Virus record (IMG/VR): IMGVR_UViG_3300042261_001253
Span: 1 to 40,309 of that record
Strand: one strand, 5' to 3'
From: a virus
DNA: 40,309 nt
Shown here: piece by piece, positions 3,323 to 21,959 of the stretch
Layout of the letters: each line of letters begins with the position of its first letter
Position numbering within the stretch: the stretch's first letter is position 1
Translations under genes and position numbers: made by a program
Notes under the pieces: generated by a model
Database searches by the model: none
The model's input: the letters and a program-made list of their open reading frames with translations, nothing else
What the model was told of the DNA's origin: nothing

Positions 3323-3383
3323 ATGATGGATTAGGTGTGATATGCTTCAAGAGCATTCAGGGACCTAACCTCTATCTCTTTAT

Positions 3384-3412
3384 ATATTAGAATATTTTTG
3401 AGTTTTTGTCAA
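3384..3412 (-). promoter_or_regulatory. Sigma70 promoter of tRNA-Met/tRNA-Thr (TTGACA-17-TAATAT)
   Basis: On the minus strand TTGACA (3412-3407) and TAATAT (3389-3384) are exactly 17 nt apart. It lies 30 bp beyond the tRNA-like element at 3443-3510 and reads into tRNA-Met, the 65-aa gene and tRNA-Thr. Confidence 0.75.
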
Positions 3413-3442
3413 GTGTTTCGGAGGAACTGTTATTCATTTAGT

Positions 3443-3510
3443 CCAGAATAGAAGATTCGAACTTCCATGGGCAATGCCCGACAGATTTTCTTACCACTTT
3501 CTCATTCTCC
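3443..3510 (-). tRNA. tRNA remnant or aberrant tRNA-like element
   Basis: The T arm GGAAG-TTCGAAT-CTTCT is canonical, the acceptor pairs over five bases (AGAAT/ATTCT) and a GGTAA D-loop motif is present. Neither a D stem nor a 5-bp anticodon stem forms. The central part (CATTGCCCATGGAA) resembles the equivalent part of the element at 1290-1361 (CAATGCACTTGGAA). It is most simply a decayed tRNA. Confidence 0.4.
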
Positions 3511-3513
3511 GTA

Positions 3514-3585
3514 GTTGATTGACATTATTTTTTATACTAGAAAAGGAGGATTTCTGCTCTCTCTACCTTAAAGACGCCAATCAAC
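3514..3585 (-). tRNA. Acceptor-closed tRNA-like element without T arm
   Basis: A perfect 7-bp stem GTTGATT/AATCAAC closes exactly 72 nt. Inside are a D-loop-like AAGGTA and a perfect anticodon-type hairpin AGAAA-TCCTCCT-TTTCT whose loop has C instead of T at position 33. The T-arm region is AT-rich and does not pair. It may be a degraded tRNA. Confidence 0.35.
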
Positions 3586-3611
3586 TAAGATATAAGTATT
3601 TAGATGTAAAC

Positions 3612-3687
3612 GAGGACGGAAAGATTCGAACTTTCGACCGACGGGGTAGAAACCCGCTGCTCTTTAATTCCACTGAGCTACGTCCCC
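3612..3687 (-). tRNA. tRNA-Arg (anticodon TCT)
   Basis: Acceptor GGGGACG/CGTCCTC, D arm GCTC/GAGC with a long D-loop, anticodon hairpin GCGGG-TTTCTAC-CCCGT and T arm GAAAG-TTCGAAT-CTTTC are all present. It reads AGA/AGG codons, which suit an AT-rich phage. A perfect promoter lies upstream at 3717-3745. Confidence 0.92.
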
Positions 3688-3716
3688 AATAGACCCTCAG
3701 GTTTGTGCGTCACTTC

Positions 3717-3745: not shown

Positions 3746-3775
3746 GTATTACTTTGTTGAAGGATAGGCATAGAG

Positions 3776-3880
3776 GGTTGTGAGAGAACGGAGGTGATCA
3801 AATCTCCGACCTAAGAAATCTTAGGATTTAGACAAAAGACCCAGATATTTCCAGAACTTCTGTGTGGTGGTCTCTCAACC
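3776..3880 (-). ncRNA. Candidate structured small RNA, tRNA-like multibranch fold
   Basis: On the minus strand GGTTGAGAGA (3880-3871) pairs with TCTCTC-AC-AACC (3787-3776), a 10-bp closing stem with a 2-nt bulge. Inside are CCTAAG-ATTT-CTTAGG and CGGAG-(10 nt)-CTCCG hairpins and a CAGA/TCTG stem. The layout recalls a class II tRNA, but the T-loop, D-loop and anticodon loop are not canonical. A perfect promoter ends 9 nt upstream of the closing stem (3889-3917). An alternative 5' hairpin GGTGGT/ACCACC competes with the closing stem. No open frame of note lies here. Confidence 0.5.
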
Positions 3881-3888
3881 ACCCCTAA

Positions 3889-3917
3889 AGAATACCGCAT
3901 CCATCAAAGACTGTCAA
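3889..3917 (-). promoter_or_regulatory. Sigma70 promoter of the structured RNA (TTGACA-17-TATTCT)
   Basis: TTGACA (3917-3912) and TATTCT (3894-3889) are exactly 17 nt apart. The TGA stop codon of the upstream 63-aa gene lies inside the -35 box. The start point is expected near 3882, at the first base of the structured RNA. Confidence 0.7.
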
Positions 3918-4599: not shown

Positions 4600-4818
4600 T
4601 CATTCAGGTAATTCTCCACCATCAATAGATTCTTCTGTTTCTGCAATTTCAGTTTCTGAAATCGTTGTACCAATTTGTTGAAGGTATTCAATTGCACCTT
4701 GAACTTTGAAAAAAAGTTCTCTTTTAGCATTAATCTGTTCTTGAAAGGAGTTAATTTCTTCTAGAAGAGACTTTCTTTGATTTAAAAGATTTGTAAGATG
4801 TTGTTGCTGTTCTTCCAT
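4600..4818 (-). CDS. Small coiled-coil protein (72 aa)
   Basis: It starts MEEQQQHLTNLLNQRKSLLEEI, with leucines and isoleucines at heptad spacing through residues 1-50, consistent with a coiled coil; the C-terminal 20 residues are acidic (ETEIAETEES). No domain is recognised. It lies between the tail-lysozyme gene and the membrane protein, each separated by a hairpin. A structural or chaperone-like adaptor role would be a guess. Confidence 0.6.
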   Translation of the reverse strand: MEEQQQHLTNLLNQRKSLLEEINSFQEQINAKRELFFKVQGAIEYLQQIGTTISETEIAETEESIDGGELPE

Positions 4819-4845
4819 AATTTTTTACAAATAAACATTTTTAAT

Positions 4846-4866
4846 AAAGGAGGACTTTATGCCTCC
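4846..4866 (-). terminator. Terminator of the tail-lysozyme gene
   Basis: On the minus strand GGAGG-CATAAAGT-CCTCC is followed by TTTATT. It lies 17 bp after the stop at 4883. The stem is only 5 bp, so efficiency may be modest. Confidence 0.65.
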
Positions 4867-4882
4867 ATTTCAGAAGTATATA

Positions 4883-5524
4883 TCAAACTTCCACTTGAAT
4901 TAGTCGAGAAGCATAATCGTAAGCAAAATCAGTTCTTGCTCCGTGATGCCCCCAACGCACCCATTTTCTTGCAAGTCGCATATAATCATTAATAGACTTA
5001 CCGGGGGACTTCATTTGATTCTCAATCATCTTCCAATCACCTTCATACATAATGTATTGCAATTGAGTATCAAGTGTGGAAGGGTCTCCACCAATACGGG
5101 CAGCAAACTTACCAAGACCATAATATCTTGGAGCATCAGTAAATTGAATTAGTCCATATCCACCAGAACGACACTGGTGATAAGGAACTCTAGCACCACC
5201 TTCACAAATATTAGGAACAAAAGTAGATTCCTGTCTAATGTTGCCCATAATGGTGGCAATGGCATTTTTGTCACGAATACCCTTGTCCTGCAGGAATTCA
5301 AGAGTAAAAGATTCATAAGAATTACATCCCTTACAAATCAGTCGTTTTTCTTTTGTTTTATCGGGAGCAACCTCGCGGATTGCTGTCTTTGTTTCAAACT
5401 CCTTAATAATTGAAAATGGTGTGGGAACATTCACTGGAGGAGGTGGAAACACGGGCAGTATTGACGCTGTGGTTGTAACCGATGCCAAAAGAGGAACGGC
5501 TACAGTTGTAAAGTTAAAAAGCAT
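4883..5524 (-). CDS. Phage tail-lysozyme-domain protein
   Basis: The 213-residue product has a hydrophobic N-terminus (residues about 1-28, ending in a Pro-rich stretch) that may act as a signal or anchor. From about residue 70 it matches the phage tail lysozyme family: a GIRDKNAIATIMGNIRQES helix with candidate catalytic Glu99, a GGYGLIQFTD segment, and WVRWG near the end. Such enzymes cut the peptidoglycan glycan strand during DNA injection. It could also act in lysis. A perfect sigma70 promoter (5655-5683) and a structured leader lie upstream. Confidence 0.8.
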   Translation of the reverse strand: MLFNFTTVAVPLLASVTTTASILPVFPPPPVNVPTPFSIIKEFETKTAIREVAPDKTKEKRLICKGCNSYESFTLEFLQDKGIRDKNAIATIMGNIRQESTFVPNICEGGARVPYHQCRSGGYGLIQFTDAPRYYGLGKFAARIGGDPSTLDTQLQYIMYEGDWKMIENQMKSPGKSINDYMRLARKWVRWGHHGARTDFAYDYASRLIQVEV

Positions 5525-21883: not shown

Positions 21884-21888
21884 AAAAT

Positions 21889-21959
21889 GGAGTATAGCGG
21901 TTCTGCCCCGTTTTCTTATCTGTGCAAGAGATAGATTTTACTAATTAAACTAATACCCC
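21889..21959 (-). tRNA. tRNA-Ala (anticodon TGC) with an atypical T-loop
   Basis: Acceptor GGGGTAT/ATACTCC contains the G3:U70 pair that defines alanine tRNAs, with A73. The anticodon hairpin TATCT-CTTGCAC-AGATA gives TGC. The T stem AACGG/CCGCT has one mismatch and the T-loop GGCAGAA lacks TTCRA. A perfect promoter ends 9 bp upstream, so it is likely transcribed. Confidence 0.75.

Follow-up and report, generated by a model that had tools for sequence, protein, structure and literature searches.

Within the tRNA cluster of phage T4, two small non-tRNA RNAs, species 1 (RNA C) and species 2 (RNA D), are encoded in tRNA sense and adjoin tRNA-Arg. They are 139 and 119 nt long, species 1 ends in a T-arm-like 3' end, and to our knowledge the role of the two RNAs is not known. 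Bacterial tRNA operons also yield spacer-derived RNAs, for example the 3'ETS of leuZ in E. coli, that act as base-pairing sponges; these have little structure, lie between or behind tRNAs and are freed by tRNA processing. In T4-like cyanophages, the RNA CfrI is antisense to psbA. The non-coding RNAs known from these phages include CfrI, PhotoRC-II, wcaG, manA and glnA (PMC9964418). The abiF RNA, which in C. difficile serves as an antitoxin by binding the AbiF toxin and neutralising it (PMC12373285), has also been reported in cyanophage S-CREM1 (PMC9964418).

We examined a window of 40,309 nt (the whole stretch of DNA analysed), a 40-kb fragment of a T4-like cyanophage genome from an uncultivated virus contig. 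Among named phages it is closest to Synechococcus phage S-SRM01 (Kyanoviridae), with 79% identity over part of the window. The RNA element described here lies on the minus strand, as do all of its parts given below, between its upstream neighbour, the small conserved gene P0001 (4105-3914), and tRNA-Arg(UCU) (3610-3688, minus strand), the next gene of the same array 3' of the element, which both ARAGORN and Rfam recognised. The ARAGORN calls bore out the location among tRNA genes given in an initial annotation of this DNA. Two other tRNA-like sequences were seen in the window: a remnant at 3440-3515 (minus strand) with the T arm GGAAGTTCGAATCTTC, called by neither ARAGORN nor Rfam and perhaps a decayed tRNA, and an extra tRNA beside tRNA-Leu at 21888-21959 (minus strand), found by Rfam (38 bits) and missed by ARAGORN.

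The minimum-energy fold of positions 3882-3776 had a free energy of -32.2 kcal/mol (z = -2.4; 2 of 200 shuffled sequences were as good) and contained the three internal hairpins that had been proposed. Hairpin 1 (3833-3862; CAGAAGUUCUGG AAAUAU CUGGGUCUUUUG) is the usual 5' companion of a 43-nt conserved core (3789-3831), and can be replaced or absent. The core opens with a CUAAAU linker (3831-3826), followed by hairpin 2 (3825-3810), a joining UC and hairpin 3 (3808-3789), and the element includes the stretch CUAAAUCCUAAG...UAGGUC. The 10-nt apical loop of hairpin 3 (AUUUGAUCAC, 3794-3803) carries the palindrome UGAUCA, in which GAUC becomes GGCC in relatives. Covariance model R1 scored the window core at 68.7 bits (E 1.6e-20).

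Several assignments were considered and rejected. No Rfam 15 family matched the core, in the window or in its homologues, at the gathering score or at E <= 1; this distinguishes the element from CfrI, PhotoRC-II, wcaG, manA and glnA and rules out GOLLD, ROOL and other large RNAs found near tRNAs. A short coding gene was ruled out by stop codons in all frames of both strands over 3776-3890, and was also disfavoured by loop lengths that differ by 1-5 nt. Hairpin 3 is not a terminator, as a U tract is absent and no terminator was called nearby on the same strand. A pseudoknot between the CUAAAU linker and the loop of hairpin 3 was rejected by eye because a variable loop position lies opposite an invariant A. 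The GAUCACCUCC of the window copy is also found at the 3' end of bacterial 16S rRNA. The case for anti-Shine-Dalgarno mimicry by this motif is weak, since most homologues have GAUCACCCCC and two groups have GGCCUCC. No close relatives whose hairpin 3 contains GGAG/CUCC were detected when these were sought.

A BLAST search of phage records with the window copy returned no match. Homologues were reached first through the neighbouring protein P0001, which gave 80 viral loci whose DNA was compared, and further ones came from two pattern scans with patterns derived from the core itself. Among the matches listed, the core was present in dozens of cyanophage contigs, mostly directly 3' of tRNA-Asn. 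The covariance model, used in place of fuzzy pattern counts that were set aside as too permissive, found it in 26 of the 80 loci fetched with P0001, always (26/26) on the strand of that gene. It was single-copy in all 14 of the long contigs or isolates that carry it, the remaining ones giving a marginal match or none. The isolate S-PM2 carries the core beside tRNA-Thr (NC_006820, 164,546-164,626), where no RNA is annotated and no psbA annotation surrounds it, and S-SRM01 has hairpin 1 only, without the core. No core copy turned up in two pattern scans covering the genomes of 84,980 species of bacteria and archaea, and we found no description of the element in the literature searched. Comparison at the sequence level establishes that the element belongs to an RNA family of T4-like cyanophages (Kyanoviridae) that is conserved, structured and present in single copy.

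The covariation supports this assignment. Across the 11 pairs of the core, 99.1% of 330 cells were paired and 5 of 11 pairs were changed on both sides. Cells with two-sided changes numbered 32, against 8.7 in shuffled alignments, and the covariation score, 0.307, exceeded the 0.139 of shuffles and collapsed to at most 0.145 once the pairing was slid along the alignment. Hairpin 1 also showed two-sided changes; over the whole element, 7 of 21 pairs were affected. In hairpin 2 the CCUA/UAGG base is invariant and the top varies in length. Compensatory base changes thus exceeded both the shuffled and the slid controls, as expected of a structured non-coding RNA. The initial annotation had named such changes as its test, which hairpins 1 to 3 passed, whereas the closing stem discussed below failed it. 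The same covariation separates the element from the spacer RNAs of bacterial tRNA operons, which it resembles in position.

Among the matches listed, the 67 distinct instances behind tRNA-Asn had a mean pairwise identity of 86% in the core, a figure inflated because many loci were fetched by the core pattern, compared with 67% in tRNA-Asn and 26-34% in the flanks. Hairpin 1 was 83% identical where it is the sole spacer; this value and the covariation are less affected by this way of fetching. Both the core and hairpin 1 surpass tRNA-Asn and the flanks (20-44%). These values bear on the idea that the element is a decayed tRNA gene. It has tRNA genes on either side and, in most genomes, the length of a tRNA, but neither the Rfam tRNA model nor ARAGORN matched the window copy or its homologues, in agreement with the annotators' view that it does not fit a tRNA. 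The core is better conserved than the adjoining tRNA, the opposite of decay, which refutes this origin for the family and makes it hardly credible. The element represents a new and genuine RNA family in the tRNA arrays of cyanophages, absent from Rfam and under selection.

Among the matches listed, 66 of 87 distinct instances of the element follow tRNA-Asn(GUU) at a nearly fixed distance, with about 30 nt to the core when hairpin 1 intervenes or 59 nt when an extra hairpin is added, and nearly all of the 87 have a downstream tRNA (Thr, Val, Leu, His or Arg). In most genomes the element starts about 2 nt past tRNA-Asn and the next tRNA is often only a few nt away; the core is always in tRNA sense. 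In L202, L114 and L100, tRNA-Asn is absent and a TTGACA/TAATAT-like promoter lies directly before hairpin 1; in the window group (L058, L253, L255, L257, L260, L261), a promoter and leader hairpin directly precede hairpin 1 or the core. Hairpin 1 is missing in L253 and L261 and in L079 is replaced by an unrelated top on a similar base stem. Modules are shuffled among array positions, as they might be in a mobile or recombination cassette (a repeat or attachment site) whose hairpins act as DNA. The single copy per genome and the orientation fixed relative to transcription argue against such a cassette, as does hairpin 1, which in many sequences retains G-U pairs that the opposite strand would turn into A-C mismatches, and we regard it as very improbable.

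Other structured modules were observed in these arrays. Just upstream of the core, L196, L200, L203, L204, L197 and L090 carry a module resembling a circularly permuted class II tRNA, in the order anticodon-like arm, variable arm, T arm, 3' acceptor strand, UUAU loop and a fully pairing 5' acceptor strand; ARAGORN recognised it in neither the encoded nor the rejoined order. Downstream of the core, L033 (from about 4222), S-SRM01 (L002, about 4640-4590), L114 and L167 have two adjacent hairpins whose loops, AGUGUC and GGCACU, are complementary while the stems differ among contigs, making them a candidate for kissing hairpins. L058, L255, L253, L261, L019, L139 and L101 share a conserved module, GATAAGGTAAGGAAAG.AAAAGGAG.ATGGGAAC...GATACC.CACCTGCCTTATC, just downstream of the core, which has no Rfam match and is apparently deleted in the window. 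ARAGORN identified permuted (cyanobacterial) tmRNAs in the cyanophage tRNA arrays of L228 (1562-1861), L222 (1356-1650) and L035 (835-1134), with tag peptides such as ANNIVAFSRSKSTALV, and Rfam gave a sub-threshold cyano_tmRNA match in L074 (about 4708-4930). A related contig, L064, has a group I intron (RF00028, 63 bits) among its tRNAs at 3327-3522.

In the window, the element is preceded by a -35 hexamer TTGACA (3912-3917) and, after a 17-nt spacer, a -10 hexamer TATTCT (3889-3894), with the folded element directly after them. The initial annotation called this promoter perfect, which overstates a site matching the consensus at 10 of 12 positions (TTGACA exactly, TATTCT at 4 of 6). A match of this type is unremarkable by itself, as 35 promoter-like sites occurred in 9 kb where 26.8 were expected. 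The promoter is credible because it is conserved: TATTCT stood at the identical distance, 6 nt upstream, in 31 of 31 matches to the leader hairpin in the loci fetched with P0001, a search made without requiring TATTCT. With a pattern that demanded TTGACA, another 14 contigs proved to have it at an identical spacing. The leader hairpin itself (GGUGGU-UGAGAG-ACCACC, 3866-3883) recurs as GUGGU-UGAGAG-ACCAC at the head of tRNA arrays in many contigs without an adjoining core, which shows it to be an independently conserved leader of tRNA arrays. The evidence supports the proposal of a new candidate small RNA driven by its own promoter: the homologues covary, promoter and leader are conserved, and Rfam has no match.

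The overall shape proposed for this RNA fared less well. The initial annotation described a tRNA-like multibranch fold closed by a bulged 10-bp stem (5' arm 3871-3880, 3' arm 3776-3787), with a 5' hairpin competing with that stem. The stem was present in the minimum-energy folds of both 3776-3882 and 3768-3885, but when the 3' flank was shuffled, 256 of 2000 sequences paired with the 5' arm at least as stably. Its 3' arm is absent from L253 and L261, relatives with the same layout, and in L058 contains a mismatch and wobbles; an acceptor-like closing stem is therefore not conserved among the homologues, and in most relatives the hairpins follow one another linearly, and no helix closes them. 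The 3' arm also borders on, and shares bases with, the stem of the abiF-like element that comes next. We could confirm neither the closing stem nor the multibranch fold.

The competition between the 5' hairpin and the closing stem did hold in energy models of the window sequence. The two are mutually exclusive, and the balance flips with the 3' end: in transcript models ending at 3768-3720 the closing stem prevails (97%), and extension to 3690 favours the 5' hairpin (91%). The homologues do not support a switch, because of the two folds only the 5' leader hairpin is conserved. As that hairpin is a conserved tRNA-array leader, a switch would at most be private to the window sequence, with the modelled energies alone in its favour. 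We therefore judge a closed, tRNA-like RNA that alternates between the two pairings to be very unlikely.

The slot before tRNA-Arg has a probable identity of its own. In L048, L064, L019, L006 and S-SRM01 it is occupied by abiF RNA (RF03085, 42-54 bits). The corresponding slot of the window (3777-3694, minus strand) retains AUGCCU.UC and GA.GCACAAAC within a CCCUC/GAGGG stem and has about 51 nt inserted in the loop. The Rfam abiF model gave no match in the window even at E 10, and none at the element; since the model is blind to this slot, its putative abiF-like identity is drawn from alignment and position. Like our element, abiF RNA is a small structured RNA of the same cyanophage tRNA regions, but it differs in sequence and fold, and in the window the two are neighbours and not one RNA.

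Among known systems, T4 species 1 and 2 are the best functional parallel. Like the cyanophage element, they are small non-tRNA RNAs that a T4-like phage encodes within its tRNA cluster, in tRNA sense. The T4 RNAs are longer, the T-arm-like 3' end of species 1 has no counterpart in the element, and core model R1 gave no match at the T4 locus (L083), so that the parallel is drawn by analogy, without evidence of common descent. We consider it probable, though well short of certain, that the element gives rise to a small stable RNA that acts in trans and is either freed from tRNA arrays as the tRNAs are processed or transcribed from a promoter of its own. The essential part of the element is the 43-nt core, with two hairpins after the CUAAAU linker and usually hairpin 1 ahead. 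In arrays, an RNA of about 75-80 nt would be freed when RNase P and 3' tRNA nucleases excise the flanking tRNAs; in the window, transcription would start at its own promoter and an RNase P cut at tRNA-Arg would release the product. The stable product could then bind a protein or a second RNA by way of its invariant CUAAAU linker, its UAGGUC joint and its UUGAUC loop, perhaps as a homodimer held loop to loop, and so would work like T4 species 1 and 2. The covariation, the close flanking by tRNAs, the conservation above that of tRNA-Asn and the retention of the core behind promoters where tRNA-Asn is missing (the window group, L202, L114 and L100) count for this reading.

The main rival is that the element acts in cis, as a processing, stability or antitermination signal on the tRNA-array transcript that contains it. 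The constant location within tRNA arrays, in tRNA sense and usually at a fixed place after tRNA-Asn, fits a cis role as well as one in trans, and the hairpin 1 slot is spacer-like in tolerating unrelated tops on a similar base stem (L079). A cis signal accounts less readily for one copy per genome when arrays reach about 22 tRNAs with many similar junctions, for retention in three settings (after tRNA-Asn, after a tRNA-Phe-like module and behind promoters), or for the conservation of the single-stranded linker and loop. We hold the cis role to be possible but distinctly the less likely explanation.

A more speculative version of the trans-acting RNA treats the arrays as counter-defence RNA islands that group tRNAs, abiF RNA (with no toxin gene seen nearby), permuted tmRNAs and the new RNA. 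The element might then be a decoy or antitoxin against a host defence toxin or RNA-sensing protein, possibly as a homodimer through its palindromic loop; we think this unlikely. The hairpin 3 loop has GAUC in most copies and GGCC in five, a two-sided change by which the palindrome is kept, and copies such as L257 have it broken. The dimer idea thus draws on one two-sided change in 5 sequences, at most a few independent events.

The element adds a well-supported RNA family, new to Rfam, in abundant viruses of cyanobacteria. As it exists in the cultured phage S-PM2, its expression and the need for it are directly testable. Because its neighbours include abiF RNA and a phage tmRNA, protection of phage translation against host defence is a concrete hypothesis, and the family suggests that phage tRNA arrays may carry more than tRNAs.
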